Below are positions 1,365-32,633 of a DNA stretch of 32,856 nt, piece after piece (position 1 is the first letter of the stretch; every line of letters starts with the position of its first letter). The DNA comes from Caldithrix sp. Its GTDB lineage: Bacteria > Calditrichota > Calditrichia > Calditrichales > Calditrichaceae. The stretch lies in contig DYOS01000029.1 in assembly GCA_020720405.1 (NCBI GenBank), positions 1 through 32,856 of the forward strand, read 5' to 3'. The notes under the pieces are model-generated. The model saw nothing but the letters and a program-made list of their open reading frames with translations, made no database searches and was not told the DNA's origin. The translations under genes and the position numbers were made by a program.

Positions 1365-1475
1365 AATTTCCTCCATTGAATTGGCGGATGATCCCCAGAA
1401 CAGGTTAGAAATTGATTAACTTTAGGTTAGATAAAAATTAATAAAGGGATAAAGTGCGCCCGGCCACAAGCCGCA

Positions 1476-2432
1476 TCACTGCTTTGGATACATGGCCTGC
1501 AGCGCTAAATAATTGATACTGTGGTGTTCATTCATATAGGAAAAATATTTATCCAGCCGGTCGAGGTAGCGCTGCACGTCCTCGTTGGTTTTATTGTATT
1601 TCGAACCCATCGGCATCAGTTCGTTGGAATGAAACATCATATTCAGCACCGTGGCCCCGTTGCGGATTTGCTGTTCGCTCAGTTCGATCATCTGGCGCAG
1701 GTTGGCATAACTTGGCCGCAGCCAGAACAGGTCTAAACCAAAAGCTTTTTTCAGCAGGCGGCGCGCCCCGATATTGGGCAAAGATGTGTAGCGGGCCGCC
1801 AGCCACTTCGCTATCGGCCGGTTAAAACCGACCGTCAGCGGCACCTCGTACAATTTCGATTTTCCGGCTTGTCTGACATTTTTTTCATCCAGAAAATAGG
1901 GTTCAATCGATGGCAGATAGCCGAAGCCCGGCTCAAATTTCATTTTTGCCTGGCGGAAAGGAACGACACTTGTATCCACCGTGTAGCCCAATTCGAGCAA
2001 AACCGGTACGGTGGATTCGTCAAAGCCATAGCGTCCGGCGCGGTACGTTTTTGGTTGCTCACCTGTCGATTGGGCAATGGCTTCAGTCAGCATTTTCATC
2101 TTTTTGTACTGCAATTCGGGTGGCAGATTGTGGGTGAAAGAGTTGGCAACGGTCCGTTCTTCCTCGTAAGGCGGATTGACCCAGGGGTGAAGGTGGGTGC
2201 CGATTTCCGCATTCTGCCCGCGGCGGAAACCATTCAAAATCTGCATGGCGGCCTCATTGACCGCCACCGGGTAATCGATTAAGTAAGTGGCAACCACGCC
2301 ATGTTTGTTAAACACCTCCTGCAAAGCCGGCAGGTATTTGATATTTTCAACCGTGTACTGACTGTGGTCTTCGTAGGCGCTGCCCCATTCGCGTTCTTCT
2401 TCGGTGTCGATGGTAACTAAAAAACGAATCAT
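1476..2432 (-). CDS. Polysaccharide deacetylase-like (WalW-type) protein
   Basis: The N-terminus MIRFLVTIDTEEE and the later segment EIGTHLHPWVNPP correspond to the Asp-containing motif 1 and His-containing motif 2 of NodB/carbohydrate esterase 4 domains, in the divergent form seen in WalW-like proteins of polysaccharide loci. A TYRAGRYGFD segment fits motif 3. These residues would bind a divalent metal for N- or O-deacetylation of a glycan; the substrate is unknown. Length is about 318 residues, with no signal peptide. The open frame extends 15 codons further upstream to 2477, but AAGGA lies 8 bases before the ATG at 2430-2432 and the domain starts there, so I use that start. It sits 111 bases upstream of the sulfotransferase on the same strand and is possibly co-transcribed. 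Confidence 0.8.
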   Translation of the reverse strand: MIRFLVTIDTEEEREWGSAYEDHSQYTVENIKYLPALQEVFNKHGVVATYLIDYPVAVNEAAMQILNGFRRGQNAEIGTHLHPWVNPPYEEERTVANSFTHNLPPELQYKKMKMLTEAIAQSTGEQPKTYRAGRYGFDESTVPVLLELGYTVDTSVVPFRQAKMKFEPGFGYLPSIEPYFLDEKNVRQAGKSKLYEVPLTVGFNRPIAKWLAARYTSLPNIGARRLLKKAFGLDLFWLRPSYANLRQMIELSEQQIRNGATVLNMMFHSNELMPMGSKYNKTNEDVQRYLDRLDKYFSYMNEHHSINYLALQAMYPKQ

Positions 2433-2881
2433 TTTTCTATCCTTGTTCTGTTCTCTGGTTAAAATCGTCTCAACCACCGGCAGCTTGAAGATATTTCAAA
2501 AAAGATTCTGCACAGATAGTTATGACCGATTGCGCCCAAAATAAAATTTTGAATCCCTGACTCAGGTGAGTGAATGGATAGCTGCTTTACCGGATCAATT
2601 TTAGCGCTGATGGTGAGTTATAATTTCCGATTGGTAAGCAACGCCTCAAAATGGGGATCGTAATCCCCAAATTCAATTAAATTTGGTGATCATATTCCCC
2701 AAATTAACAGATACCGGATTTATCTGATTTTATGCGGATTACAAAATTGGGGTAGCACCGGAATAAACCAGATCATTCACATAAAGCACAGCAAAAGCCG
2801 CATAAAAATTCCATCCGTTTTGTGATATGCAGTTTTATTCAGAATGAATAACTAGTTCATCAACATCTTTCGATACTCATC
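2433..2881. other. Intergenic region with palindromic motifs, no gene seen
   Basis: About 450 bases between two minus-strand genes, AT-rich in part. No open frame with recognisable protein character was found. It should contain the promoter of the deacetylase gene (reading leftward) and the end of the transcript of the outer-membrane barrel gene. I could not identify a hairpin plus T-tract. The region contains the palindrome cluster at 2653-2705. Confidence 0.5.
2653..2705. repeat. Cluster of CCAAATT / GGGGAT palindromes
   Basis: GGGGAT-CGTA-ATCCCC (2653-2668) is a perfect inverted repeat. CCAAATT (2667-2673) pairs with AATTTGG (2680-2686), and CCAAATT recurs at 2699-2705, 32 bases after the first. 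The two units GATCGTAATCCCCAAATT and GATCATATTCCCCAAATT are near-direct repeats. A related AAATTGGGG lies at 2744-2752. It could be an operator array or a degenerate repeat; no bound protein can be named. Confidence 0.5.
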
Positions 2882-5800
2882 TTAAAAAAAGGCGCGCAGT
2901 TCGGCTTGTCCGCTGTGAATGATTTTCTCAAATCCGGCCTCATCGCGTCCGGAATACTGCAAACTGAAGACTATATTTTTGGCCACCGTGTATTCACTGT
3001 GCAATTGCCAGGTTTTGGAAAGACCGGCCCGTTTACCCTGTGCCATTTCAAAAGGCACAACCAGGTTTAAGGGATTTTTGGTTATGCTGACTTTCTGCAG
3101 ATTGTATTCAGCGCTAAAACGACCTTTGGCAGGCCAGGCATAATTCAGCCGCAGGCGGGCCAGCAGGTACCATAAATCCAGGGGATAGGTGCTGACAGCA
3201 TTTGATTCCAGTCCGGCGGTGTTTTCGAGGCCGAACTCCCAGCGCTTGATTGGCCGCCAGGAAGTACGCTGTTTACCATACCAGCCGCTGATATTCCGGT
3301 TCCGGGAAACGGCTGCGGCGCTGATCCGGCGCAGATTTTTATTGCTGATTTCATTCTGGGTCTGGATTTCACTGCTTATCCGCCAGTCGGCCTGAACACT
3401 GCGTTCGATGTTCAGCCGGTCTTCATTTTCACCGGCATCCAGATATTGGTTGAACAAATCATCGCGGTAGCGGTAGCGCAACCGCCATGAAAGCGCACGG
3501 TTTTGGCGGTTGATAAAAATATCCTGGTTATAAATAATACTGCCCCGGATAGTCTGATCGCCCTGGAATTTATTCAGATTCAACAGGTAAATGGAGGCCA
3601 GTTTTTTCTCGCCGGTTTCTTCATCAAAGCGCAGATAGGTTTCGCCGCTGAGCAAACTCAGCCATTTTCCCGCTGCATTAGTTTTACCGGCGGCCTGTTT
3701 TGAAAAATCAAAGAGTAAGCGCCAGGAAGTTTCCAGTTTGGTAACCGGTTTAAACTGCCCGGAGGGTAAAATAAAGAGAACAAAATTTCCGTCCGGGTCG
3801 GGTACATATTCAGAGAGCTGCTCATCGTAGCGGTACAGACCGCGGCCCTGCCCCACTTCGAGATAAATTTTTTCTTTCAGGGCAGTCTGTTCGGTGGAAA
3901 TACGGTATTGCCAGCCCAGGCTCAGGCTGCGGCTGGTATTGCGGCGGTTCAGATTGACTTCGGCCAGATTGGTTGAACGGTCCTGCCAGGTGGTGTCCTG
4001 CAGGGTCACATCGCTGTACAGTGCTTTTAGCGAGTCAACCTGAACGGCTTCAAAGCGCCGGGTATAGTCTTTTTCCCGGAAAACCAGGCGCAAATTTCCG
4101 CTGGTCAGTTCCAGATTTTTCAGTTCGAGCCTTGTTTCGGCGGTCTGCGACCAGGCCTGGCCGACCAATTTACCATTGGCTGCCACATCGTACAGGTAAT
4201 CCTGTCTCTGACCGTAATCCAGAAAACCATCGACATGGCGCCGGTTGAGCAGCCCGAGGCGTAAACCATATTCATCATAAACAAAGCCGGAAATCTGCCG
4301 GGACACATTGCGCCGGTCCTCGCGCTGATAACGTAATTCGGGACTGAACCAGCCCAGGGGATGACCAACTCCGGCCTGGTAGCGCTGCCACAAATTCCGG
4401 GAAGACAAGGTGGTGATTCTGCTTTCGATGCGCTCGGTTAAAGCCCGGCCGCTCCAGCCGTCACGGTTTTCAAGGTAAAGGCTAAGGCCCTGGCGGGAAG
4501 AATTGAGCGTGCTCTTTTTCAACTGACCGATATTTGCTTTAAGGCGGAGATTTTTACGCGGCAGATATTGCAGATTACCCTGCAGACTTTGTTCCTGGCT
4601 ACTCTGGGCCTGGCTGTTCAGAATGTTCCAGAAGGAATTATAATCGGCCCGGTTCAACCGGCTGGCACTGGTAAAATGTTCATCAATCTGCCGGCCTTCC
4701 ACCTGCCACGATAAGGAACCCAGAGCTAAACCAGCCAGACCAATTTCCCGTTCAGCCTGGGCGGCTTCAATGCTCCAGGCCAGCCCAATATTATCTCCGT
4801 CATTCAAAGCAGACAAAACGTTCCGGTCCTGGCGTGAGAGCGCAGTTTCAGCCCGCACAGTAAGACCGGAAGCCGCTGTCCACTCCAGGTCAATATCGGT
4901 TAACTCCAGACTGGAGGGTAAAGGCAGCAGAACCAGGGGCAGGTAACTTCCGGCACCTGGGCCGGCAAAACGGTACACCCCGAGCCGGTCGCGGACATAA
5001 TCGCCCAAACCGTTGCCGACATAGCTGAAGCGGACCTGATAGTCGCCCTGTCCGGCGCCGCGGTAACGGTAAATGCGCAGAGCCTGCCCGGCGATAACCG
5101 TATCGATGGCGCTGTAGCTGCCGGCGGAATCACTGACTGCGGTTACCCCGCTGCGCACGGCGGAAAGGGGATCATCACCGGCAGCACGGATAATTTCTTT
5201 GTCTTCGGCTGAAAGATTTGTCCCGCTTTCGAATAACTGACCCGGATCATCTTTTTCCAGAAAATAACGGGCGCCGATCTTCCAGGATGGGCCAATCTGA
5301 TTGCGGGTTATGGCACTGTAAACATTGCGGTTGAACTGCTGGTCGGACGGGAAGTACTCAAAATCGGCCTCGAGGCGCGAGGCGCTGGTGATCAGCCGGT
5401 TATTGGTAAATGTGATCTGGCCGTTGCCGTATTCGATAATATAATCGTTGCTTTCGCCGCGCTGCATTTCCTGCCCGTCAATCCATATTCGTTCGGTTCC
5501 GGCCAGAACCACAATGTCGGTCCGCCCGTTTTCGCCGGTTAACTGGTAGGGGCCCTGCCGCCCTTCCTGACCGATCAGCAAAATGTGATTGAAATAGCCG
5601 CGGGTGGTTCCGGCGGTTACCCCGGCCTGCTGTTTGCGGTAATCACCGGATAATGTTAAACCCTGCAATTTGCGCGACAGACGGGCAAAGCGGGTGTCAT
5701 CGTAAAAAAGGTTAAAATCGCCGACGGTACCCGATAGGTATGGGCTTTTAAAGTGCACAAAGACTTTATCCACTTCATTCAGGCTCTGGGTATTGCCTTC

Positions 5801-6382
5801 AGGTTGGATCGGGGTAGCCTCATCGGTCAGGGCGGCGACAATTTCCACCTGTTCAGTCAGCTGTCCGGCAATTTCCAGATTCAGCCCGGAGTTTAGAGTG
5901 AGATCCTGGTTGGAACCAATGCGCACACCGCGCATCAGGCTGCCGCTGGTATTAAGTCCGGGCGGCATTTCGGCAAAAGGATTATGAAGTTGGCGGGCCG
6001 GCTGGACGGAAAGGATTTTGCTCAGGGAATCGCCGGCAGGAATGCTGCTCCGGCTTGTATCAAACAGAGCCAGGCGGCGGGGCAGATTAAAGGGCTGCCG
6101 CTTGTAGCGGATATGCAGCGTATCGCCGGGCTGAAGCGGAACATAAAATTCAATACGCTGCTCATTGACCAGGCTAAAATCTGTGATGGTCAGCGGAATG
6201 CCGTTTTTTTTGATATCCAGTGTCTGCGGCTTCAGGTAATGATGGGCCGGAAACACCCAGAAAGTTGCTTTACTTCGGGCCACCATCGCCGAATCAACCT
6301 GCCAGGGATCCGCTGGGATAAGGGTTTGAGACTGTGCCGGGCGGAGAAAAAGAAGCAGAATAAAGGGCAGGTATCGTTTCAT
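2882..6382 (-). CDS. Large outer-membrane beta-barrel protein
   Basis: 1166 residues with a clear Sec signal peptide (MKRYLPFILLLFLRPAQSQ) and a terminal Phe (ELRAFF), as expected for BAM-inserted barrels. Most of residues 500-1166 are alternating-hydrophobicity strands rich in Tyr, Trp, Arg and Leu. Residues about 145-250 contain a conserved-looking block (RGVRIGSNQDLTLNSGL, then AALTDEATPIQPEGNTQ, then DKVFVHFKSP and GTVGDFNL), and around 310-330 there is an IIEYGNGQITFTNNRLI segment like the usher/surface-protein DYTIDYxxGEITF pattern. I recall such blocks in uncharacterised FCB-group proteins. Its start codon overlaps the stop of the upstream NHL-repeat gene (TAATG), so the two are translationally coupled. 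Transport, secretion or assembly roles are all possible; I do not assign one. Confidence 0.85.
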   Translation of the reverse strand: MKRYLPFILLLFLRPAQSQTLIPADPWQVDSAMVARSKATFWVFPAHHYLKPQTLDIKKNGIPLTITDFSLVNEQRIEFYVPLQPGDTLHIRYKRQPFNLPRRLALFDTSRSSIPAGDSLSKILSVQPARQLHNPFAEMPPGLNTSGSLMRGVRIGSNQDLTLNSGLNLEIAGQLTEQVEIVAALTDEATPIQPEGNTQSLNEVDKVFVHFKSPYLSGTVGDFNLFYDDTRFARLSRKLQGLTLSGDYRKQQAGVTAGTTRGYFNHILLIGQEGRQGPYQLTGENGRTDIVVLAGTERIWIDGQEMQRGESNDYIIEYGNGQITFTNNRLITSASRLEADFEYFPSDQQFNRNVYSAITRNQIGPSWKIGARYFLEKDDPGQLFESGTNLSAEDKEIIRAAGDDPLSAVRSGVTAVSDSAGSYSAIDTVIAGQALRIYRYRGAGQGDYQVRFSYVGNGLGDYVRDRLGVYRFAGPGAGSYLPLVLLPLPSSLELTDIDLEWTAASGLTVRAETALSRQDRNVLSALNDGDNIGLAWSIEAAQAEREIGLAGLALGSLSWQVEGRQIDEHFTSASRLNRADYNSFWNILNSQAQSSQEQSLQGNLQYLPRKNLRLKANIGQLKKSTLNSSRQGLSLYLENRDGWSGRALTERIESRITTLSSRNLWQRYQAGVGHPLGWFSPELRYQREDRRNVSRQISGFVYDEYGLRLGLLNRRHVDGFLDYGQRQDYLYDVAANGKLVGQAWSQTAETRLELKNLELTSGNLRLVFREKDYTRRFEAVQVDSLKALYSDVTLQDTTWQDRSTNLAEVNLNRRNTSRSLSLGWQYRISTEQTALKEKIYLEVGQGRGLYRYDEQLSEYVPDPDGNFVLFILPSGQFKPVTKLETSWRLLFDFSKQAAGKTNAAGKWLSLLSGETYLRFDEETGEKKLASIYLLNLNKFQGDQTIRGSIIYNQDIFINRQNRALSWRLRYRYRDDLFNQYLDAGENEDRLNIERSVQADWRISSEIQTQNEISNKNLRRISAAAVSRNRNISGWYGKQRTSWRPIKRWEFGLENTAGLESNAVSTYPLDLWYLLARLRLNYAWPAKGRFSAEYNLQKVSITKNPLNLVVPFEMAQGKRAGLSKTWQLHSEYTVAKNIVFSLQYSGRDEAGFEKIIHSGQAELRAFF

Positions 6383-7290
6383 TACCTGTGCTTCTCAGGT
6401 GCAGCAGTCAGAATCAGGGCATCTTCATCGAGAATCAAGACCCGGAAAGGCAACCTGTCATCTTTGAACAGGGCAATATCACGCGGTTGTCTGAGCGGCT
6501 GACCCGATTGCCAGGTAACCGGCTCGGTCACCCGGCGCCGCAGATCATAATAAAAAAGCAGACCAGCCTGACTGTCGGTTATCCATAAACCGGCTTCATC
6601 GGCGGCCAGACCGCAGGGCTGCTGCATCAACGGGTGGGTCAGTTCTTCAAGATAGCTGCCGAATGAATCAAAAAGGAGAATGGCTGAACGACCCGGATCG
6701 CTGACCGCAATACGATTATTGGCAAGAAGCTCGAGTTGACAAGGGTTAGTTAAACTGGCCAAACCGGATTCATAGCCGCCGAAAACCAGTTCAGGCGAAC
6801 CTTCGCGATTGAATTTGATGATCCGGTTGGCCGACTGTTCGAGAATATACAGGTTATTCTGAGAATCGATGAGCAGGCTGCGTACCTCGGCAAACTGGAA
6901 TTCAGGCCGGGCCCCGGGGTTGGAAACCAGTTCGGAAATAAAATTAAACTGGCGGTCATAGCGCAGAATACGCTGATTATTATAGTCGGCTACAAAAATG
7001 TTTATCGCTGAACCGGCCCGGATATCCGCCGGGCGGTCAAATTGTTCGTAACCAAAGCCGAAACCTCCAACCACTCTTTGCAAATTGAGTTGCGCATCGA
7101 GCAATAAGATGCGGTGGTGACCGCTGTCGACAATGAAAATAGTACCGTCGGCTCCAATATCGATGGCCTGGGGTTGGAGCAGGGTTAGGTTTTGCGGGCC
7201 AAATGTATTGATGCGACCGGTCTCCTGAAGAAACGGCTGGGCGGATAAAAGGCAAAACGAACTGAAAATAAGCAGGGAAATACAGCGCAT
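6382..7290 (-). CDS. Secreted NHL-repeat beta-propeller protein
   Basis: 302 residues: a signal peptide (MRCISLLIFSSFCLLSAQ) followed by successive NHL/six-bladed propeller repeats. Examples are AIDIGADGTIFIVDSGHHRILLL (in part), IFVADYNNQRILRYD, LYILEQSANRIIKFNREG, RIAVSDPGRSAILLFDSFG and GLWITDSQAGLLFYYD. These repeats form protein- or ligand-binding propellers and have no catalytic signature here. No lipobox is evident, so it is probably periplasmic or exported. Its stop codon overlaps the start of the 1166-residue barrel gene by one base, so the two products are likely made together and may act as a periplasmic/outer-membrane pair. The start is fixed by the signal peptide; no Shine-Dalgarno is visible, and a promoter-like sequence lies unusually close (7296-7324). 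Confidence 0.88.
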   Translation of the reverse strand: MRCISLLIFSSFCLLSAQPFLQETGRINTFGPQNLTLLQPQAIDIGADGTIFIVDSGHHRILLLDAQLNLQRVVGGFGFGYEQFDRPADIRAGSAINIFVADYNNQRILRYDRQFNFISELVSNPGARPEFQFAEVRSLLIDSQNNLYILEQSANRIIKFNREGSPELVFGGYESGLASLTNPCQLELLANNRIAVSDPGRSAILLFDSFGSYLEELTHPLMQQPCGLAADEAGLWITDSQAGLLFYYDLRRRVTEPVTWQSGQPLRQPRDIALFKDDRLPFRVLILDEDALILTAAPEKHR

Positions 7291-12662: not shown

Positions 12663-13682
<1,020 letters not shown>

Positions 13683-13688
13683 TTATTG

Positions 13689-13717
13689 AAGGCTGTCCCA
13701 GTGACAGCTTTTTTTTT
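13689..13717 (+). terminator. Intrinsic terminator after gapA
   Basis: GCTGTC (13692-13697), loop CCAGT, GACAGC (13703-13708), extended by weaker A-T/G-T pairs, followed by nine T (13709-13717). It lies between gapA and pgk and may be partial, giving more gapA than pgk transcript. Confidence 0.85.
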
Positions 13718-13768
13718 GATTTATCCATCCGGAGTAGGTGGTCCGGAATAAAATACAGGAGATTGGCT

Positions 13769-14980
13769 ATGGCAAAACTGACCATTGATCAACTGGATCT
13801 GAAAAATAAAAAAGTACTGATGCGATGTGATTTCAATGTACCCTTTGATGAACAGATGAATATTACCGATGACCGGAGGATTACGGCTTCACTCCCGACC
13901 ATCACAAAGGCTTTGGAAATGGGTGCCGCTGTTGTACTATGCAGTCATCTGGGTCGGCCTAAAGGCGGTCCGGAAGATAAGTACCGGCTTCATCCGGTAG
14001 CGAAAAGACTAAGCGAACTTCTGAAAAAAAATGTCGTCATGGCACCAGATTGTATCGGTAGTGAAGTCAATCAGCTAAAGAGTAATCTGCAAGCCGGTGA
14101 TGTGCTGCTTCTGGAAAATCTGCGTTTTCACAAAGAAGAAGAGAAGAATGATTCCGGATTTGCCAAAGAACTCGCTTCGGGGATGGATGTATTTATAAAT
14201 GATGCCTTTGGCTCGGCTCACCGGGCTCATGCTTCGACCGAAGGTGTGACTCATTTTTTTAAGCAGTCGGCGGCCGGTTACCTGATCGGGAAAGAGCTGA
14301 AATATTTGGGGGAGGTAGTTGAAAATCCGGCCCGGCCCTTTGTTGCTGTATTGGGTGGAGCAAAAATTTCGGGGAAAATCGATGTCATCCGGAATCTGAT
14401 GGACAAAGTAGATCAGCTTATTATCGGTGGCGGGATGGCCTATACTTTTTTTAAAGCTCAGGGATTTGGGATCGGGACTTCACTCTTGGAAGAGGATAAA
14501 ATTGAACTGGCTGCAGATCTTTTAAACGAAGCGGTGAGAAAACAAAAAACGCTTCTTTTGCCGGTGGATGTAAAAATTGCCGCGGCATTTGCCAATGATG
14601 CTGAAGCCAGAGTTGTTGATATAAAAAATATTCCACCGGATTTTATGGGTCTTGATATTGGTCCTGAAACCATGAAATTGTTTGCCAATGTCATCAGCTC
14701 AGCCAGAACTATTGTCTGGAACGGCCCGACCGGCGTTTTTGAAATGCCCAATTTTGCCCATGGCACCCGGGCAATGGCCGAAGCTATCGCCTCAGCCACA
14801 GGCAGCGGGGCGGTCAGTGTTGTCGGAGGCGGAGATTCTGCTGCGGCCGTTGCCCAGTATGATATGGAAGACCAGTTTACCCACATTTCGACCGGGGGCG
14901 GCGCTTCACTGGAATTTCTTGAAGGAAAAGTTTTACCGGGAATTGCGGCCTTAACGGAACTCAGAAGGGATTACGAATGA
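13769..14980 (+). CDS. pgk: Phosphoglycerate kinase
   Basis: 403 residues. Transfers the acyl phosphate of 1,3-bisphosphoglycerate to ADP in glycolysis. Seen in order: RCDFNVPFD (substrate binding), SHLGRPKG, LLLENLRFHKEE, GGAKISGKI, WNGPTGVFE and the nucleotide-binding GGGDSAAAV near the C-terminus. A TTG two codons upstream (13763) is in frame, but AGGAG at 13757-13761 is spaced for the ATG at 13769. The stop overlaps the tpiA start (ATGA), so the two enzymes are translationally coupled. It follows gapA after a terminator hairpin. Confidence 0.98.
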   Translation: MAKLTIDQLDLKNKKVLMRCDFNVPFDEQMNITDDRRITASLPTITKALEMGAAVVLCSHLGRPKGGPEDKYRLHPVAKRLSELLKKNVVMAPDCIGSEVNQLKSNLQAGDVLLLENLRFHKEEEKNDSGFAKELASGMDVFINDAFGSAHRAHASTEGVTHFFKQSAAGYLIGKELKYLGEVVENPARPFVAVLGGAKISGKIDVIRNLMDKVDQLIIGGGMAYTFFKAQGFGIGTSLLEEDKIELAADLLNEAVRKQKTLLLPVDVKIAAAFANDAEARVVDIKNIPPDFMGLDIGPETMKLFANVISSARTIVWNGPTGVFEMPNFAHGTRAMAEAIASATGSGAVSVVGGGDSAAAVAQYDMEDQFTHISTGGGASLEFLEGKVLPGIAALTELRRDYE

Positions 14981-15738
14981 GAAAGAAATTGATTGCCGGC
15001 AACTGGAAAATGTTTAAGACCAATTCGGAAGCCCTGCAATTGGCCAATCAGGTCAAAATAAAAACAACCGAGATCAGCAAAACTAAAATAGTAATGTGTC
15101 CGCCTTTTACAGCATTGGCGGCCGTTGCCGATGTTGTGCGCGGTACAAAAATTGGCGTCGGTGCGCAGAACCTGTATTGGGAAAAAGAGGGCGCCTTCAC
15201 CGCTGAAATTTCCGCCGGTATGATTAAAAGCACCGGTGCGGCTTATGTTATCATCGGTCACTCGGAACGCCGGCAGTATTTTGGTGAAACCGATGCCACG
15301 GTAAACAAAAGATTAATCTCTGCCCTGGAAAACGGATTGACGGCAATTGTCTGTGTCGGTGAAACCCTGAACGAGCGGGAAGCCAATGTGACCCGTGATG
15401 TGGTCGGAAAGCAGATCCGCGGCGCTTTTAACGGCATCACGGCCTCCGATTTCAGCCAGATCATCGTTGCCTATGAACCGGTTTGGGCAATAGGTACCGG
15501 TAAAACTGCAACACCGGATCAGGCCCAGGAAGTACACGCCTACCTGCGTCAGGTGATGGCCGATGAAAAAGGGCGGGAAATTGCAGAATCGTTACAGATT
15601 CTATACGGTGGAAGTGTTAAACCGGAGAATGCCAGTGAGCTTCTTTCCCAAAAGGATATTGACGGCGCTTTGGTTGGCGGTGCCTGTCTGAATGCAGATT
15701 CTTTCGGAGCGATCATTCATTCGGCAGAAGCGCTCTAA
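14977..15738 (+). CDS. tpiA: Triose-phosphate isomerase
   Basis: 253 residues, full length. Interconverts dihydroxyacetone phosphate and glyceraldehyde 3-phosphate as a cytosolic dimer. Active-site residues are all present: K11 in AGNWKM, H95 in GHSERRQYF and E167 in VAYEPVWAIGTG; the flexible loop 6 (IGTGKTAT) and phosphate-binding LYGGSVKP are intact. It starts inside the pgk stop codon (ATGA overlap). The 69-base gap to secG contains a promoter candidate. Confidence 0.98.
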   Translation: MRKKLIAGNWKMFKTNSEALQLANQVKIKTTEISKTKIVMCPPFTALAAVADVVRGTKIGVGAQNLYWEKEGAFTAEISAGMIKSTGAAYVIIGHSERRQYFGETDATVNKRLISALENGLTAIVCVGETLNEREANVTRDVVGKQIRGAFNGITASDFSQIIVAYEPVWAIGTGKTATPDQAQEVHAYLRQVMADEKGREIAESLQILYGGSVKPENASELLSQKDIDGALVGGACLNADSFGAIIHSAEAL

Positions 15739-24835: not shown

Positions 24836-26245
24836 ATGGATAAACAAACCTATCCGGTTAAAAAATCTGGTGAATACGAGCTAAAAATAGAAAAACTGGT
24901 CTTCGGCGGCGCCGGAATCGGACGGTTGGATAATTATGTTATCTTCGTTCCGGAAACATTGCCCGGCGATCTGGTCAGGGTCAGAATAACCAAACGAAAA
25001 ACCGCCTTTGCCGAAGCCCGGCTGTTGCAGGTTCTGGCCGCCTCCGATCTGCGCCAGACTCCGCCTTGTCCCTATTTTGAATGGTGCGGCGGATGCACCT
25101 GGCAAAATATGGATTATTCCAGCCAGACCCGGTACAAGGAAAACATCGTCCGCGAATCTCTGGAACGGATCGGCCGGCAGAATGATTTTGAGTTTTTACC
25201 AATCATCGCCGCGGAAAAATCGTTCGGCTACCGCAATAAAATGGAGTTTTCTTTTGCCGACCGGCGCTGGCTATTACCCGCCGAACTGGATGACCCGGCC
25301 ATCGAACGCAACCTGGCTCTTGGTCTGCATGCCCCGGGTACCTTTGACCGGATTCTGCAGATTGATCAATGTCTGCTCCAGCCCGACCTGCCCAATGCCG
25401 TTCTGCAAACTGTTTTCCGCTATGTAAAAGACAACGCCCTGCCGCCCTTTGGGCTGCGCAGCCACCAGGGCTTTCTGCGTTTTCTGGTTATCCGCAGCAG
25501 TAGTTTTTCCGGTGAAATCATGGTTAACCTGGTCACCGCTTACGAAGATATCCCACTGTTGCAGCCCCTGGCCGAACTGCTGACCAGCCGCTTCCCGCAG
25601 ATTAGTTCCGTGGTCAATAATATCAATTCCCGGCCGGCTCAGATCGCCTTTGGCGAACGGGAAATAACCCTGTCCGGTAAAAATTTTATCCAGGAAAAGC
25701 TGGGCCGCTTTGTCTTTGATATCTCGGCCAATTCTTTTTTCCAAACCAATACCGCCCAGGCCGAAAAGCTGTTTCAACTTGCCCTGGATTTTGCCAGTCC
25801 CCGCCCCGATTCTGCGATCTGGGATCTGTATTGCGGGGCGGGGACAATCAGTCTTTTCCTGGCCGCAGCGGGCGGACCGGTAACCGGGTTTGAAATGGTT
25901 GAGGACGCTGTGGCTGATGCCCGCCGTAATGCTACTACACATGGGGTGAGCAATGTCCGTTTTGTGGCCGGCGATCTGGCTAAAACCCTGGCCGGGCGGC
26001 AGGACAAACCGGATATTATCGTCACTGATCCACCCCGTTCCGGGATGCACCAGGCTGTGATCGACCAGATTCTGCGGGTTGCACCGGCCAGAATCGTTTA
26101 TGTTTCCTGCAATCCCACCACCATGGCCCGCGATATCGCCCTGCTCATGCCCGGTTACCAGCTTCGCCGGGTCCGCCCGGTAGATATGTTTCCCCAGACT
26201 TACCATATTGAAACCGTGGCCCTGCTGGAAAGAAACCAGGCATGA
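24836..26245 (+). CDS. rlmD: 23S rRNA (uracil-5-)-methyltransferase RlmD/RumA
   Basis: 469 residues. Methylates C5 of a 23S rRNA uridine (U1939 in E. coli numbering for RlmD; the RlmC/RlmCD site is possible). Order: TRAM RNA-binding domain (about 10-70), 4Fe-4S ligands C78, C84, C87 (CPYFEWCGGC) and C179, then the SAM-dependent methyltransferase domain with NSFFQTNTAQAEKLF, DLYCGAGTISLFLA, VTDPPRSGMH and the catalytic C425 in VSCNPTT. All key residues are present. It is flanked by a radical SAM gene (2-base gap) and overlapped by a SpoU methyltransferase gene (ATGA), an RNA-modification pair. Confidence 0.95.
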   Translation: MDKQTYPVKKSGEYELKIEKLVFGGAGIGRLDNYVIFVPETLPGDLVRVRITKRKTAFAEARLLQVLAASDLRQTPPCPYFEWCGGCTWQNMDYSSQTRYKENIVRESLERIGRQNDFEFLPIIAAEKSFGYRNKMEFSFADRRWLLPAELDDPAIERNLALGLHAPGTFDRILQIDQCLLQPDLPNAVLQTVFRYVKDNALPPFGLRSHQGFLRFLVIRSSSFSGEIMVNLVTAYEDIPLLQPLAELLTSRFPQISSVVNNINSRPAQIAFGEREITLSGKNFIQEKLGRFVFDISANSFFQTNTAQAEKLFQLALDFASPRPDSAIWDLYCGAGTISLFLAAAGGPVTGFEMVEDAVADARRNATTHGVSNVRFVAGDLAKTLAGRQDKPDIIVTDPPRSGMHQAVIDQILRVAPARIVYVSCNPTTMARDIALLMPGYQLRRVRPVDMFPQTYHIETVALLERNQA

Positions 26246-26790
26246 ACCGGAAACTAAGCTACCCGGAAATTTATGCCCGCCAGCCCCGCCTGAGCCAGGT
26301 CAAAACCCTGTCCCGGCTGCCCATTATTACCTGGGCTGAGAATATCCGCAGCCTGCATAATGTCGGCTCCATTTTCCGCACTTCGGATGCGGTGCGGGTG
26401 CGGGAACTGATTCTTAGCGGTTTCACCCCGTATCCGCCCCGGCCGGAAATTGAAAAAACAGCACTTGGCGCTACGGATTCAGTGCCGTGGAGTTATTTTG
26501 AGACAGGGCAGACGGTATTGGATCGTCTCCGGCAGCAAAAAATACCGGTTGTTGTACTTGAGCATACGACTGACAGTATCCGCTATACCGATTTTGACTG
26601 GAAATTTCCGGTTTGTCTGGTGCTCGGTAATGAGGTTGATGGGGTTTCGGCCGAGGTGGTTGAGCAGGCCGATTTTGCCGTTGAAATTCCCATGCTCGGG
26701 ATGAAGCAGTCTTTAAATGTCTCCGTGGCCTACGGCATTCTGATTTATCATGTGGCCATGCGCTGGCTGGACAATCATCCGCAAACTTGA
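26242..26790 (+). CDS. SpoU/TrmH-family RNA 2'-O-methyltransferase
   Basis: 182 residues, starting in the rlmD stop (ATGA). The three SPOUT motifs are visible: NVGSIFRTSDA (motif 1, with the catalytic Arg), LGNEVDGVS (motif 2) and IPMLGMKQSLNVSVAYGI (motif 3, in the trefoil knot that binds SAM). There is no extended N-terminal RNA-binding domain, so it is the short form. Predicted to methylate a ribose 2'-OH of tRNA or rRNA; the exact site cannot be assigned. Its stop codon overlaps the -35 element of the next operon's promoter. Confidence 0.93.
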   Translation: MNRKLSYPEIYARQPRLSQVKTLSRLPIITWAENIRSLHNVGSIFRTSDAVRVRELILSGFTPYPPRPEIEKTALGATDSVPWSYFETGQTVLDRLRQQKIPVVVLEHTTDSIRYTDFDWKFPVCLVLGNEVDGVSAEVVEQADFAVEIPMLGMKQSLNVSVAYGILIYHVAMRWLDNHPQT

Positions 26791-26816
26791 CATATTTTCA
26801 ACAGGTGCGGTATATT
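26787..26816 (+). promoter_or_regulatory. Strong sigma70-like promoter of the DUF4388 operon
   Basis: TTGACA (26787-26792, perfect -35) overlaps the stop codon of the SpoU gene; 18-base spacer; TATATT (26811-26816, 5 of 6 of the -10 consensus). It would give a leader of about 90 bases containing the 14-base perfect palindrome CCGGCTGCAGCCGG (26845-26858). Confidence 0.7.
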
Positions 26817-26915
26817 CTAAAAGTTATTCAGTATGTTTACCAGGCCGGCTGCAGCCGGAACGGATTCCCGGCTTGCCGTTTTGAGTATTTAGTTTAATCA
26901 CGAGCGGAAAAATCC

Positions 26916-28466
26916 ATGGCCCTAAAGACAATTCAACTGATTGATTCCCATCCAGCCCGATCAGACCAGTACAAACATGAATTTTCAGCACTGGGCTATA
27001 ATCTGATCAGCTACGCCGGTTTTCAGGATTATCACCACGATGCCTATGCAGCCGGCACCTTTCTGTATATCATCAACTATGCCGATATGGTCAGCCAGGA
27101 GCGTCAGCTGGTTCTCGATTTTTTCCGGGATAACCAGAAAAAAGCTGTTGTTATTACCGGTGTTCCTCTGGACGCTGCCAAACGCCTTGCTTTTTATGAT
27201 TTGGGTGCCCGCCGTGTTTTCGACGATTCCTATTCTCTCCACGATATTATCCAGATTCTGAGCGCCCAGATGGTTATGCTCTCGGAAAAACAGAAAAGCC
27301 ACCGCTTTTTACTGCGTGGCAATCTGGAGGAAGCCTCACTGGTCCGGCTGATCAATAATCTCTCCCGGGAGAACCGTTCCGGCATTATAAAAATTGTCAC
27401 CGAAGAGAACAGTGGTAAAATTATTCTTCACAACGGCCGGCTGGATGATGCCCAGGTTGGGCTGATGCGCGGTGAAGAAGCTTTTCTGCACATGCTCTTC
27501 TGGAGCAGCGGTAATTACAATTTTACCTCCGCCACCGACCAGGCCGCCGGATCGGTTATTACCATGAGTAACATCGGGTTGTTTTTAATGGCTGAGCAGA
27601 TCCGCACCCGATTTATCGAACAGATGCAGATCTTCGGTTCACGCTTCACGGTTGTTCAATTAATTAACCGGGGCGATGTTTTACAGGGACTGGCACCGGT
27701 TTACCAAAAGCTGGTCGATTTTCTGAGCCAACCCAAACCGCTGTACAAAGCTCTGGAAAATCCTTTCCTGCCCTGTTACCGGACACTGGATTTTCTGGTC
27801 GGTCTAAAATCCGCTGGCAATCTTCAGATACAGGATCCGGTTTTCAGCGAATCACGGACCAAAACCAAAGAAGCACCGCCGGTTCCCGCCGCTGGCGGGA
27901 TACTAAGTGCGGATGAAATAAGCCAGCTCCGGCAAAACCTTCAGCTTACCCGCCAGAAGAAGGCTAAACTGATAGTCATCGGTTCCGCCGCTTCCGGAAA
28001 AGATGCCCTGTTCCGCAGCCTGAGCGGCTCCGGTAATGAACCGACCGGTTCTATAAATTACCAGTTTAAACAGGTTTTGCTGACGCCCGATCTGGAACTG
28101 ACCGTGATCGGTTTGAATCTGGAACAATCCGCTCTGACCCAGCTCGACCTGCTCAGTCAGGATCTGAACGCACTGGTTTTTATGCTTAGCAGCCAGGATC
28201 AATCCCGCTTTGAATATCAGAATTATCTGCTTAATCAGGTGCTGAATAAGCTCGATGTCCCGGCCCTGGCCGCGGTCAGCGATTGCCAGGATAAAATGGA
28301 ATGTGACCGGGTTTCGGCTCAGTTTATCCTGCCCAGACCGGTTACCTGGTCTGCCTTTGACAGCAGTGGTGGAAATATATTGGGCCGACTGCTGGCCAGC
28401 ATCCGGGAACCGGAAAAAAGCAAAAAGGAAACGGTCAGTGACCAGATGGAAGAGCAATCCGCATGA
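26916..28466 (+). CDS. Pseudo-receiver / DUF4388 / degenerate GTPase fusion protein
   Basis: 516 residues, no signal peptide. Residues 1-120 have a CheY-like fold pattern (IQLIDSHPARSDQYKHEF, then FLYIINYADM), but the phospho-acceptor position is N54, the acidic pocket is reduced to D10-S11 and the usual K-P is replaced, so it should not be phosphorylated normally. Residues about 131-210 are a DUF4388 domain (LRGNLEEASLVRLINNL, GKIILHNGRLDDAQVG, LHMLFWSSGNYNFT). After a linker and a Pro-rich segment, residues about 345-500 resemble a small Ras-like GTPase with P-loop G356-SAAS-G-K362-D363, where the expected Ser/Thr is Asp and no clear DxxG or NKxD is present. First gene of a three-gene ATGA-coupled operon. 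A signalling scaffold is inferred. Confidence 0.8.
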   Translation: MALKTIQLIDSHPARSDQYKHEFSALGYNLISYAGFQDYHHDAYAAGTFLYIINYADMVSQERQLVLDFFRDNQKKAVVITGVPLDAAKRLAFYDLGARRVFDDSYSLHDIIQILSAQMVMLSEKQKSHRFLLRGNLEEASLVRLINNLSRENRSGIIKIVTEENSGKIILHNGRLDDAQVGLMRGEEAFLHMLFWSSGNYNFTSATDQAAGSVITMSNIGLFLMAEQIRTRFIEQMQIFGSRFTVVQLINRGDVLQGLAPVYQKLVDFLSQPKPLYKALENPFLPCYRTLDFLVGLKSAGNLQIQDPVFSESRTKTKEAPPVPAAGGILSADEISQLRQNLQLTRQKKAKLIVIGSAASGKDALFRSLSGSGNEPTGSINYQFKQVLLTPDLELTVIGLNLEQSALTQLDLLSQDLNALVFMLSSQDQSRFEYQNYLLNQVLNKLDVPALAAVSDCQDKMECDRVSAQFILPRPVTWSAFDSSGGNILGRLLASIREPEKSKKETVSDQMEEQSA

Positions 28467-29599
28467 AAGATATTTTTATTATCACCAGCGAAGAAAAAAA
28501 CTACCAGATGCTCTATACCAGTCTTGGCAATCTGGACATCCATTTTTCCTGGTTCGATTCACCGGCCGAAGCCATACCTCTTCTGCCTGTGGAAAAGCCG
28601 GCTGCCCTGTTTCTTGTCTCAGCCCGATTGGATGAATTAAAGCAGAACACTGCCCGCCTGCGCCAGAATAATCCGGATATTCCGATCTGGGCTTTTCTGC
28701 CCGATACCCTGTTGGGGGCCAGAAATGATCTGTGGAGAATCGGTCTGAGTGATTTTATCCGCCTGCCCGTGCTGCGCCGGGAACTTCAGATCATTGTGCA
28801 GCGCCAGTTTTTCAGCCCCGATGCAGGCGGTGAAGAAGCATCCGATAAACGTCATGGTGAGCTTGAAGAAACCAATCTGCTGGACATTCTGCAGAGTTCT
28901 GTTGATCAGAAATTCAATGGCAGTATTCTGATTACCCATGGCGAAGGCAAGGGTGAAATTGAACTAAGTGACGGGCAGATTGTCAATGCCCGGCTGGGTG
29001 AATACGATCCGCTGATGGCAATCAAAATAATGTCAACCTGGGTTAACGGAGATTTTCAAACCCTGCCGACGCGGAAAAAATTTTTCCGGCGCCTAAAAAC
29101 TGAAACGCCGGGTGTTATCCGCGAATGTCTTGATTTTATCACCGGAATGCAGGAGAAAATGGCTGGTATGCACAAGCCTAAAGAGCGTCTGTATATTCGG
29201 CCCCAACTTGAATTTGAAGAATTGAATTATTTTGAGCGGCAGAATCTGATTCAGTTCCGGGAGGGCCTCAGCCTGATGGAGCACCTGCAGGAGTTTTCCG
29301 GAAATCCGGTTTATCTGCTGGACGAGTTCAAAAAATGGCAGACCAACGGCTGGCTTTTATCGGAAGATGCGTTTAAAAAAATGACCGCCCGGCTTAACCA
29401 GGCCGAGCGTCAGTCGGGTTTGCGCAAACTGTTCCAGAAGGTGTTCAGCCCGGAGGAGAGCCGCCCGCCAAAGGAACAAAACGGGTTGAGACTAAACGAA
29501 CTGGAGGCGGCGGTCAGCCCCGAACGGAAAACAGGCTGGCGATTCCGGCAGTTTGAGGTGCTTGAAATACTGACCGGTGCATTTGGGAAAGAGTTATGA
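28463..29599 (+). CDS. Pseudo-receiver / DUF4388 protein
   Basis: 378 residues, starting within the preceding stop (ATGA). Residues 1-115 are receiver-like (MKDIFIITSEEKNYQMLY, then AALFLVSARLDEL) but lack the aspartates of the acidic pocket and the phospho-acceptor. Residues about 131-212 are DUF4388 (HGELEETNLLDILQSS, FNGSILITHGEGKGEIELSD, GQIVNARLGEYDPLMAIKIM, GDFQTLP). The C-terminal part contains a winged-helix-like block (REGLSLMEHLQEFSGNPVYL, then DEFKKWQTNGWLL), often found beside DUF4388, and an unordered charged tail. Same N-terminal architecture as the gene before it, suggesting duplication. DUF4388 is common in gliding/polarity and chemosensory-type proteins of deltaproteobacteria and relatives; the precise role is unknown. 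Confidence 0.8.
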   Translation: MKDIFIITSEEKNYQMLYTSLGNLDIHFSWFDSPAEAIPLLPVEKPAALFLVSARLDELKQNTARLRQNNPDIPIWAFLPDTLLGARNDLWRIGLSDFIRLPVLRRELQIIVQRQFFSPDAGGEEASDKRHGELEETNLLDILQSSVDQKFNGSILITHGEGKGEIELSDGQIVNARLGEYDPLMAIKIMSTWVNGDFQTLPTRKKFFRRLKTETPGVIRECLDFITGMQEKMAGMHKPKERLYIRPQLEFEELNYFERQNLIQFREGLSLMEHLQEFSGNPVYLLDEFKKWQTNGWLLSEDAFKKMTARLNQAERQSGLRKLFQKVFSPEESRPPKEQNGLRLNELEAAVSPERKTGWRFRQFEVLEILTGAFGKEL

Positions 29600-30072
29600 A
29601 AACCATAGAAATTGTCCTCATCAACGACCTTGGCGAAAATCTGGAGGCCTTTCTGAGCAAATCCGGGCTTCCGGTAATCCGGGATTACAGCGGTTTCCGT
29701 TTTACCGAACTGGAAGTTGATTCTGAGACCCGCATTTATCTGTACCTGACCGAAGGCCGCTCCCCGGAAAAAAAAACCATCTTGTGGAATCAGATTTTCC
29801 CCATGGCCGCCTTCACCCTGATTCTCTCCAATGGGCCCGGTGAAAGTTTGCTCAAATTCCTGGAATTCTATTTCCGCCATTATGAAACACCGGTCTTTCT
29901 GGTCAATGTCAGCCAGGCCAGCCTGACACCGGATTCCCAGTTTTTATCAAGATTGCTTCTTGAAGAAAAGATCGAGGTCATCCAACTGGCCGGAAACGAA
30001 CCGGATCCGCTGCGCAAAGTGCTCTATCTCTGTGCCAAAAAAGTACTTATCGATTATAGAAATCAGGTTTAA
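29596..30072 (+). CDS. Small GTPase-fold-like protein lacking a P-loop
   Basis: 158 residues, starting within the preceding stop (ATGA). Predicted alternating alpha/beta. The pattern of strands (RIYLYLTEG, FTLILSN, PVFLVNVSQ, IEVIQLAG) and the closing helix (DPLRKVLYLCAKKVL) resembles the latter two thirds of MglA/Arf-like small GTPases and the C-terminal part of the 516-residue protein, but there is no Walker A and no NKxD. I do not recognise a named family. As last gene of the coupled trio it is likely a stoichiometric partner, perhaps a pseudo-GTPase adaptor. The PhoB-type gene starts 93 bases after its stop. Confidence 0.75.
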   Translation: MKTIEIVLINDLGENLEAFLSKSGLPVIRDYSGFRFTELEVDSETRIYLYLTEGRSPEKKTILWNQIFPMAAFTLILSNGPGESLLKFLEFYFRHYETPVFLVNVSQASLTPDSQFLSRLLLEEKIEVIQLAGNEPDPLRKVLYLCAKKVLIDYRNQV

Positions 30073-30165
30073 ATTGGCTTTAACAGGAATCGAACGAAAA
30101 TTTAACCCGCCATTAGTATTTTTCATACAAGATTAACGACATTACAATCAGCTAAAGAGGTGAAT

Positions 30166-30855
30166 GTGGCACGAGGTAATATTTTTGTAATTGACGATGA
30201 AGAGGATATTCTCGATCTGGTCGATTATAATCTGGCCAAGGAAGGTTTCCAGATTTCGCGTTTTACCACCGGTGAAGCTGCCCTGGAAGGTGTGAAGCGG
30301 GAGAAGCCCGACCTGGTGCTGCTTGATCTGATGCTGCCCGGTGTGGATGGGCTGGAAATCTGCCGGCAGCTGAAAAGGAATAAGGATTATTCGGAAATAC
30401 CAATCATCATGCTTACGGCAAAAGGTGAGGAAAGCGATATAGTCAGCGGTCTGGAATTAGGTGCCGACGATTATATTACAAAACCGTTTTCGCCAAAAGT
30501 TCTGCTGGCCAGGGTAAAAACCATTCTGCGCCGGAACCGAAAAACCACCCAGTCCGAAACCGACCGCATAGAAATATACGACCTGATTATCCATCCCGGC
30601 CGCCATGAAGCCCTGTATAAAGGTGAAGTGCTTCAACTGACCTATTCAGAATTTAAACTGCTTCATTTTCTGGCCCGCCGTCCGGGTTGGGTCTTCACCC
30701 GTTATCAGATTGTTGATGCCCTGCGCGGTGATAATTACCCGGTTACCGAACGGGCGGTTGATGTGCAGATTGTCGGTCTGCGCAAAAAACTTGGTGAAGC
30801 CGGGCGTTATATCGAAACGGTAAGAGGTGTGGGTTACAGGTTCCGGGAAGAATAA
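30166..30855 (+). CDS. PhoB-family response regulator
   Basis: About 229 residues. N-terminal receiver with intact pocket: VIDDEED, phospho-acceptor D54 (LVLLDLMLPG), T in MLTAKG and K in YITKPF. The C-terminal OmpR/PhoB winged helix (LTYSEFKLLHFLARRPGWVF, RAVDVQIVGLRKKLGE, IETVRGVGYRF) binds DNA as a dimer. I place the start at GTG 30166 because the in-frame GTG at 30160 lies inside the AAAGAGGTG ribosome site. Its stop overlaps the start of the kinase gene (TAATG). The phosphate-regulator branch is favoured by similarity and by the PhoR-like partner, but no pst or phoU gene is in the window, so the stimulus is unproven. Confidence 0.93.
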   Translation: MARGNIFVIDDEEDILDLVDYNLAKEGFQISRFTTGEAALEGVKREKPDLVLLDLMLPGVDGLEICRQLKRNKDYSEIPIIMLTAKGEESDIVSGLELGADDYITKPFSPKVLLARVKTILRRNRKTTQSETDRIEIYDLIIHPGRHEALYKGEVLQLTYSEFKLLHFLARRPGWVFTRYQIVDALRGDNYPVTERAVDVQIVGLRKKLGEAGRYIETVRGVGYRFREE

Positions 30856-32633
30856 TGTCCGGAACCCGTCTTTTCTGGCAGATTTTTCCCTCCTCACTGG
30901 CCATCACTCTGGTGGCCATCTTTGTATTGACCTGGTATTCAACAAAATTAACCAGGGAATTTTATCTCACAAAAACCTCCGGTGATTTGCAAAGCCGCAC
31001 GGAATTGATCCGGCCCACCGTTCTCGGCCACCTGGCTGAAGGCCAATATCTGGCCCTTGAAAACTGGATCGATCATCTTGAATTAAGTTCGCCGATGCGT
31101 ATCACGGTAATACTGCCCGACGGTCGGGTTGTGGCCGATTCCGATGAGAATCCACGCAATATGGATAACCATGCCACACGACCGGAAATTATCCGGGCAT
31201 TTAAGGATTCCGTCGGAACATCGATCCGATTCAGTGCCACTGTTGGCCGGAATCTGATGTATGTGGCCCTGCCTTTACACCATAAGGGCCAGATCATCGG
31301 GGTTCTGCGAACTGCATTATCTCTCCATTCTATCGAAGATGCCCTGCGCAAAATTCAAAGCAGGATTATGCTGGGTAGTTTTGTGGTCGCTCTGGCCACC
31401 ATACTGATCTCCCTGATTATCTCAAGGAGAATCAGCTTGCCGCTTGAAATTATGACTAAAAGTGTAGATGTCTTTGCCTCTGGTAATCTGGGTCATCGGC
31501 TATCCGTACCGCGTTCGCAGGAGATGAGTAAACTGGCCCGCAGCCTGAACCAGATGGCCTGGCAACTGGCTGAGCAAATCCGGACTATTGACATCCGGAA
31601 AAATGAACAGCAGGCTGTTCTGCAGAGTATGGCTGAAGGTATTCTGGCGGTCGATAACCAGAAAAAAATTATTATCCTGAATAAAGCGGCCTCCCGGTTT
31701 TTAAATATCGATAAGACCGCCAGTATCGGCCAAAGGGTGGATGCTGTGCTCCGGCATAGTACGCTTTACGATTTTATCTGTGCAACACTGGAAATGGTAC
31801 GGCCGCATGAAACCGAGGTGGAACTACCCGGTGAGCAGGTCAAATATCTTCAGGTCAGCGGTTCACCAATGCTGAATGACCAAAACAAATCGATTGGTGC
31901 CGTGATGGTTTTGAACGATGTGACGCGTCTCCGCCGTCTGGAGCAGGTGCGCCGGGATTTTGTAGCCAATGTTTCCCATGAAATCCGGACACCGCTGACC
32001 TCGATTAAAGGTTTTGTGGAAACTTTAAGAGAAGGTGCCATTGAGAATCCGGTTACGGCTAAACGATTTTTGGAGATTATTGAACGGCAGGCTGAGCGGC
32101 TTAATATGATTATTGAAGATTTGCTTCTGCTGGCCAGGCTGGAACAGGACAGCGGTGATCCATTGCATATGGAATTAAGCCTGGTTCGTCCGGTAATTGA
32201 AGATGCTATCCGGGCCTGTACGCCGCGGGTCATGGAAAAAAAGGTTGAGATTATTGTGGAATGCCCGCCGGAAGCAAAGGTGACCATGAGCGCCGCCCTG
32301 ATTGAGCAGGCTGTTATAAATCTGATCGACAACGCACTTAAGTACAGCGAAGATGAATCAAAAATTGAAATCTGCTGTGAAAAAGATCCGGCTGGTTTTT
32401 ATTTCCACATCCGGGATAATGGCATGGGGATTTCAGAGGAACATCTGCCCCGGCTTTTCGAGCGGTTTTATCGTGTTGACAAAGCCCGGTCACGGAAAAT
32501 GGGCGGAACAGGCCTGGGGCTGGCCATTGTCAAACATATTATTGGTGTTCATCATGGCCGCATTGATGTGAAAAGCGAGCTGGGCAAAGGCAGTACATTT
32601 TCCATCTTTATTCCGGCGTACCCGGCAGCCTGA
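30855..32633 (+). CDS. PhoR-like sensor histidine kinase
   Basis: 592 residues, start overlapping the regulator's stop. Order: TM1 (about 9-27), an extracytoplasmic domain of about 140 residues, TM2 (about 172-192), HAMP (about 193-245), a PAS-like domain (about 255-360: MAEGILAVDNQKKIIILNKA), HisKA with phospho-acceptor H375 (DFVANVSHEIRTPLTSIKGF), and HATPase_c with N box NLIDNALKYS, DNGMGIS, FERFYRV and GGTGLGLAIVKHI. The extracytoplasmic domain plus HAMP and PAS layout is that of Gram-positive- and FCB-type PhoR kinases. The complete set of catalytic boxes indicates an active kinase/phosphatase for the adjacent regulator. Confidence 0.93.
   Translation: MSGTRLFWQIFPSSLAITLVAIFVLTWYSTKLTREFYLTKTSGDLQSRTELIRPTVLGHLAEGQYLALENWIDHLELSSPMRITVILPDGRVVADSDENPRNMDNHATRPEIIRAFKDSVGTSIRFSATVGRNLMYVALPLHHKGQIIGVLRTALSLHSIEDALRKIQSRIMLGSFVVALATILISLIISRRISLPLEIMTKSVDVFASGNLGHRLSVPRSQEMSKLARSLNQMAWQLAEQIRTIDIRKNEQQAVLQSMAEGILAVDNQKKIIILNKAASRFLNIDKTASIGQRVDAVLRHSTLYDFICATLEMVRPHETEVELPGEQVKYLQVSGSPMLNDQNKSIGAVMVLNDVTRLRRLEQVRRDFVANVSHEIRTPLTSIKGFVETLREGAIENPVTAKRFLEIIERQAERLNMIIEDLLLLARLEQDSGDPLHMELSLVRPVIEDAIRACTPRVMEKKVEIIVECPPEAKVTMSAALIEQAVINLIDNALKYSEDESKIEICCEKDPAGFYFHIRDNGMGISEEHLPRLFERFYRVDKARSRKMGGTGLGLAIVKHIIGVHHGRIDVKSELGKGSTFSIFIPAYPAA

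Follow-up and report, generated by a model that had tools for sequence, protein, structure and literature searches.

The window analysed here, a stretch of 32,856 nucleotides from Caldithrix sp. (contig DYOS01000029.1 of assembly GCA_020720405.1), contains three consecutive forward-strand genes joined by ATGA overlaps, which are listed together with their domains and flanking features in Table 1. Reading frames, strands, coordinates and both overlaps agree with those given in the first-pass annotation, which was made from the sequence alone. That annotation also regarded a near-consensus promoter as driving the trio; a site matching 11 of 12 consensus positions does exist, but a scan of the region gave 8 such sites versus 3.5 expected, so a single promoter-like site is weak evidence. 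A search of the open-licence literature returned one paper that mentions DUF4388 and no earlier account of the trio.

Table 1. Features of the three-gene locus and of its surroundings (positions in the window)
Feature	Position	Strand	Description
RlmD/RumA-type RNA methyltransferase gene	24836-26245	+	upstream neighbour conserved across phylum; by content outside module
SpoU/TrmH methyltransferase gene	26242-26790	+	upstream neighbour conserved across phylum; by content outside module
promoter-like TTGACA-18-TATATT	26787-26816	+	consensus match only; overlaps stop codon of upstream methyltransferase gene
gene 1	26916-28466	+	516 aa; pseudo-receiver + DUF4388/PATAN + winged-helix-like + Ras-like G domain
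gene 1 receiver-like domain	26925-27278	+	aa 4-121; PDB profile match, AlphaFold2 model
gene 1 DUF4388/PATAN domain	27315-27587	+	aa 134-224; Pfam match
gene 1 winged-helix-like segment	27663-27839	+	aa ~250-308; model secondary structure only
gene 1 Ras-like G domain	27951-28415	+	aa ~346-500; AlphaFold2 model, Foldseek, profiles
gene 1 P-loop-like GSAASGKD	27981-28004	+	inside Ras-like G domain
gene 1/gene 2 ATGA overlap	28463-28466	+
gene 2	28463-29599	+	378 aa; pseudo-receiver + DUF4388/PATAN + winged-helix-like + linker
gene 2 DUF4388/PATAN domain	28853-29125	+	aa 131-221; Pfam match
gene 2 basic amphipathic short helix GLRKLFQKVFSPE, C-terminal linker	29417-29455	+	conserved among relatives
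gene 2/gene 3 ATGA overlap	29596-29599	+
gene 3	29596-30072	+	158 aa; stand-alone Ras-like fold without P-loop (pseudo-GTPase)
phoB-like/phoR-like two-component pair	30160-32633	+	adjoins trio in some family members only; outside module

The products of genes 1 and 2 both contain a DUF4388 domain (PF14332), which we take to be the domain named PATAN in InterPro, with scores above the Pfam gathering cut-off of 25 (gene 1: 41.9 bits, E-value 1e-10; gene 2: 29.5 bits, E-value 8e-7); a control search found PF14332 in Synechococcus. Matches to this family at E<=0.1 were obtained for 31 of 33 relatives of gene 1 and for all 31 relatives of gene 2. For the N-termini, profiles of the relatives matched receiver structures in the PDB (E-value 9e-6 for gene 1 and 2e-9 for gene 2), and the earlier description of both proteins as receiver-like domains followed by DUF4388 is thereby borne out. 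The AlphaFold2 model of gene 1 (14 relatives; mean pLDDT 78, pTM 0.40) exhibits good individual domains in an uncertain arrangement, namely a (beta-alpha)5 receiver, DUF4388, a winged-helix-like segment and a Ras-like domain, and a Foldseek search of the PDB with this model placed Arf/Arl-type small GTPases and a chain of a tubulin-cofactor complex at the top (best E-value 1.5e-7). Matches of gene 1 to an NCBIfam ABC-transporter family and other weak matches fall over the P-loop region, far under the respective cut-offs, and were rejected. The winged-helix-like segments matched no DNA-binding family in Pfam or the PDB, while the secondary structure in the gene 1 model fits a winged helix.

Gene 3 matched no family in Pfam. 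Its AlphaFold2 model (12 relatives; pLDDT 87, pTM 0.83) has the order of elements typical of Ras-like proteins, and the best PDB structures reported by Foldseek are Rab, Ras and Rho proteins (E-value 6e-6, TM ~0.6), with all matches listed being small GTPases or GTPase domains. Model and matches uphold its description as a stand-alone GTPase-like fold devoid of the P-loop. Two gene 3 rows (L061 and L062), initially read in a wrong frame, were left out of the later alignments; a profile identified their right frames.

The first-pass annotation had named unrelated folds in gene 3 and in the C-terminal part of gene 1 as an outcome that would speak against the module. The two are, however, of one fold and one family: both are Ras-like in the models, and the gene 3 profile aligns with the gene 1 G domain along its length (score 55.5, E-value 8e-9; controls reached at most 15.1 in 40 column shuffles and 14.5 with the reversed profile). 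The profiles of genes 1 and 2 align from the receiver through the winged helix (E-value 1e-22), and domain-wise comparisons gave 1e-8 for the two receivers and 8e-27 for the two PATAN domains. Moreover, genes 2 and 3 form a single reading frame in three genomes (G003, G007 and G011). The simplest reading of these similarities is that genes 2 and 3 together represent a copy of gene 1 that arose by an ancient tandem duplication, the duplicated ancestor having probably been one receiver-PATAN-winged helix-GTPase protein whose second copy was split in most lineages. The recognition of genes 2 and 3 as a putative copy of gene 1 is new here. In a tree built on the N-terminal part that genes 1 and 2 have in common, the copies of gene 1 and those of gene 2 from the two phyla in which the trio occurs (see below) form distinct groups, moderately supported (77/83 and 81/90); since each group spans both phyla, the duplication is old.

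The profiles of gene 3 and of the gene 1 G domain both match stand-alone GTPases at four other loci (L105, L107, L108 and L109), presumably of the COG2229/CvnD-like type. For gene 3 the E-values range from 1e-7 to 2e-5. These proteins exhibit complete GTPase motifs, and the matches root gene 3 in their family. At two of these loci (L107, positions 3011-4179; L108, positions 2637-3808), whose genomes measure 1.4-1.7 Mb, a gene for a 211-aa DUF4388 protein overlaps that of a canonical small GTPase; the pair in L107 lies directly 3' of a phosphofructokinase-like gene.

The module is real, old and common to two phyla. The neighbourhood check proposed in the first-pass annotation found the homologues together in all 36 Calditrichota loci uncut by a contig end, always in the order 1-2-3 (counting the three loci with genes 2 and 3 fused). 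Of 40 genomes from the phylum, 37 gave a match to the gene 1 profile with an E-value < 1e-90, the relative being either long or of full length, and 38, among them all 23 of good quality, matched the gene 3 profile. Retention of the trio across the whole phylum at only ~15-35% protein identity indicates more than chance. Labelled relatives in the alignment search are nearly all metagenome assemblies of Calditrichota (Calditrichia, Caldithrix), and a single-sequence search of genome contigs yielded no relatives. Among 345 genomes outside Calditrichota few have anything similar; restriction of the trio to Calditrichota is nonetheless ruled out, as it also occurs in a second phylum (that of G359 and G229), where gene 3 was found in 45 of 82 genomes and the three-gene order is present in the 13 sampled loci, which were opened because of their gene 3 match. 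One further locus of that phylum (L106 from G229) has genes 1 and 2 with no recognisable gene 3.

Among the standard switches in bacterial cell polarity are small Ras-like GTPases and receiver domains; to the first-pass annotation the receiver and GTPase sites of the trio looked inactive. In this genome the motifs are indeed eroded. In the gene 1 receiver the phosphosite aspartate is replaced by Asn54 and the threonine and lysine are lost (N54, G82, D104 in the window), while gene 2 exhibits V, L and L at the corresponding positions. Among relatives of gene 1 the phosphosite is D in 12, E in 10 and N in 6 of 32, with Thr and Lys mostly lost; in gene 2 it is never D, and 37 of 38 proteins have W, V, A or I there. 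Inactivity is not universal, however: gene 1 of L106, alone among the inspected rows, carries all five canonical receiver residues and looks phosphorylatable. Similarly, the label of degenerate GTPase fits the gene 1 C-terminus with respect to its Ras-like fold and eroded motifs, but its P-loop (GSAASGKD) is nearly intact rather than absent, with GxxxxGK kept and only the last residue of GxxxxGK[ST] changed. Neither G3 (DxxG or TPGQ, the PGQ of switch II included) nor G4 (NKxD) was found at its site in any of the 38 gene-1 relatives; PGQ and NKxD strings elsewhere in these proteins were inspected and rejected as chance matches outside the switch sites. No gene-3 protein of the phylum carries a P-loop. 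Since L106 gene 1 has the full receiver set together with a P-loop, the loss of catalytic sites appears to have been progressive rather than original.

The conservation that remains lies elsewhere. Within the gene 1 receiver, no other stretch of 20 residues is conserved as well as residues 84-103, which rank 1 among 99 such windows in the alignment of the order as well as in that of the phylum. They cover alpha4-beta5, which belongs to the face that receivers normally use for output; the active-site columns are about average. In the G domain an EYxxY motif in alpha3 is nearly invariant, and the P-loop columns are conserved below the domain average. That the output face and EYxxY are best conserved while the catalytic motifs are eroded points to docking as the probable function of both the receiver and the Ras-like folds. 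The linker of gene 2, otherwise variable, contains a short basic helix whose positive charge is kept by all 31 relatives. In 14 of the 31 its hydrophobic moment is larger than in 90% of shuffled sequences, which is only suggestive of an amphipathic helix; it is a candidate membrane tether.

The main rival to docking is nucleotide-dependent switching by gene 1. The gene 1 product could bind a guanine nucleotide that it does not hydrolyse alone, with the gene 3 pseudo-GTPase acting as its exchange or activating partner and the heterodimer as the switch. Genes 1 and 3 carry the two G domains of the duplicated unit, as this model would have it, and the GxxxxGK of the window is accompanied by a canonical P-loop in 7 of 38 gene-1 relatives (L033, L036, L045, L056, L057, L064 and L106) and a relaxed form in 16 of 38, so nucleotide binding has not been lost everywhere; gene 3 of the second phylum also comes nearer to a P-loop (GPKSVGKE in L140_8). 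However, the P-loop columns are the less conserved part of their domain, PGQ and NKxD are lost at their sites in all, and the intact P-loop is scattered over the tree in a way that forces at least 5 changes. We regard such a hidden switch as rather unlikely, although it is the alternative that fares best.

With respect to the cellular setting, ten DUF4388 matches were found in the same genome. One of the clusters observed (L126, G000:C30:26000-32000, positions 2350-5845) comprises a PATAN protein, a roadblock-like protein, a winged-helix-like protein, a HAMP membrane protein, MglB and a canonical MglA with complete GTPase motifs. Proximity of PATAN genes to mglA has been reported before (PMC4316618), and FrzS, a pseudo-receiver, docks within the MglA/SgmX network (PMC11580455). 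Roadblock matches occur in 40 of 40 genomes of the phylum; no roadblock (MglB) gene was found in the module loci. Other DUF4388 proteins are variously composed. In L003 (G000:C234, positions 997-3287), two adjacent genes each encode DUF4388 together with a cyclic-nucleotide-binding-like domain, and one of them also has a receiver-like end; a DUF4388 protein in L131 (G000:C95, positions 1173-5221) has a CheB-like C-terminus in addition to a second receiver and lies near a second CheB-like gene; and a single protein in L129 (G005, positions 2056-3153) unites a canonical receiver, DUF4388 and a roadblock-like domain, i.e. it is a natural fusion joining PATAN and MglB-type domains.

The same genome encodes a type IV pilus cluster with PilB, PilT, PilC, PilD and secretin-like genes, and for Caldithrix abyssi both a type IV pilus cluster and flagellar genes have been described (PMC5317091). 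In the pilus cluster of L127 (G000:C61, positions 13302-15620), a PilB-type motor is fused at its C-terminus to a receiver with canonical residues. By analogy with cyanobacteria, in which binding of PATAN domains to the pilus motor PilB is reported in work cited in PMC10519157, the trio might be a specific regulator of pilus extension that contacts PilB via PATAN, and the pilus genes and the receiver-PilB fusion of this genome would provide for such a role. Against it, no PilB/PilT motor genes were detected in G008 (94% complete) and G022 (92%), although both carry the module; this makes a pilus-only role unlikely, and among the ten DUF4388 matches others could fill it; we consider this explanation improbable.

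Neither mglA/mglB nor pilus genes lie beside the module, whose constant neighbours across the phylum are the two RNA methyltransferase genes. Homologues of SpoU and/or RlmD are immediately upstream in 30 of the 31 phylum loci that have upstream sequence (window included). Nearly throughout the phylum the two genes hold their place beside the trio (24836-26790 in the window); the RlmD-like gene is divided into two reading frames in G007 (L042, positions 5563-6969). Such constancy could mean that the trio is an accessory to translation or to rRNA/tRNA modification that works with these enzymes. In the window, however, the trio has a promoter-like site of its own and is separated from the upstream gene by a 125-bp gap, the methyltransferase genes are not adjacent to it in L060, and they were not recognised around the opened second-phylum loci, where no profile search was made. 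We know of no role of PATAN or receiver domains in RNA modification, and hold this explanation to be quite improbable.

Downstream, the first-pass annotation noted a canonical PhoB/PhoR pair. A phoB-like and a phoR-like gene do adjoin the trio here (240 bits for the regulator versus the PhoB equivalog cut-off of 296, and 402 for the kinase versus the PnpS cut-off of 400), but phoBR follows the trio only in the window, G001, G002, G005, G008, G012 and G014. As this adjacency is confined to 7 genomes of one family, phoBR is ruled out as a part of the module. Control of gene expression, in which the winged helices of genes 1 and 2 would bind DNA, the remainder would serve as a sensor and phoBR would be target or partner, is the least probable of the explanations considered. 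The winged-helix-like elements of the gene 1 model and the receiver/winged-helix protein that accompanies Group 3 MglA (PMC4316618) speak for it, but the segments match no DNA-binding family, that of gene 1 is conserved no more than DUF4388, and phoBR is so narrowly distributed.

We therefore return to docking, and tentatively propose, with a confidence somewhat short of even, that the trio forms a mostly non-catalytic adaptor complex whose most likely client is MglA/MglB-type polarity and surface machinery. The proposal builds on the observed domain content, homology, conserved linkage, loss of catalytic motifs and shift of conservation, and on the duplication that these similarities suggest. 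According to it, an ancestral receiver-PATAN-winged helix-Ras-like GTPase protein was duplicated in tandem; one duplicate would have remained intact as gene 1 and the other would have been divided into genes 2 and 3. The products may form a two-armed complex, in which the receivers and G domains would have given up chemical switching and serve for binding instead; the receivers would make contact by the alpha4-beta5 output face and the G domains by the side of alpha3. The gene 2-gene 3 fusions are an indirect hint that the products interact. The PATAN domains could be the client-binding part, and the basic amphipathic helix could tether the gene 2 protein at the membrane. As the client we infer the cell's MglA/MglB-type polarity and surface machinery, of which PATAN proteins are known companions; it is the likeliest of the candidates. 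Against the proposal count the position of the module away from mglA/mglB and pilus genes, the canonical P-loop kept by some gene-1 relatives and the low pTM of the gene 1 model. A scaffolding role of the trio would also fit the conservation pattern described above.

We give a nearly even chance to the broader claim that both duplicated receiver-PATAN-GTPase arms are pseudo-enzymes, with the Ras-like fold serving purely for pairing or docking, in at least two phyla and in every good-quality Calditrichota genome examined. If this is true, bacteria re-use switch folds as scaffolds, in the manner of eukaryotic pseudo-GTPases, and the module has been kept across two phyla while its switches decayed. 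The trio also provides a defined set of partners for DUF4388/PATAN, a domain that is common but of which few members have been studied, and the trio's occurrence in the cultivable Caldithrix lineage makes it amenable to testing.

Among known systems, the cyanobacterial PATAN regulators (PatA, PixE, PixG and LsiR), which are thought to connect signals with surface machinery (PMC7690835, PMC10519157), likewise combine PATAN with a receiver-type domain in a single protein. The trio differs from them in its pseudo-receivers and the added Ras-like domain, and in that its unit comprises two PATAN proteins and a lone pseudo-GTPase. Myxococcus MglA/MglB with RomR, FrzS and SgmX resembles it in the combination of a Ras-like fold with (pseudo-)receiver proteins, whereas the G domains of the trio lack switch II and the base-recognition motifs and the locus has no MglB gene, the canonical MglA/MglB pair being located elsewhere in the same genome. 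Group 3 MglA systems (MglA, MglB and a receiver/winged-helix protein; PMC4316618) share the receiver-like N-terminus, the winged helix and the Ras-like neighbour; however, they possess MglB and have no PATAN reported, and the G domains of the trio are degenerate. The stand-alone GTPases of L105 and L107-L109, matched by both trio profiles and in L107 and L108 preceded by a DUF4388 gene just 5', retain the P-loop and PGQ, unlike the trio domains. Finally, the pseudoGTPase domains of p190RhoGAP differ in partners and domain layout and have only the fold in common with the trio, but they too are Ras-like folds, which have lost nucleotide binding and act inside a regulator (PMC5593906).
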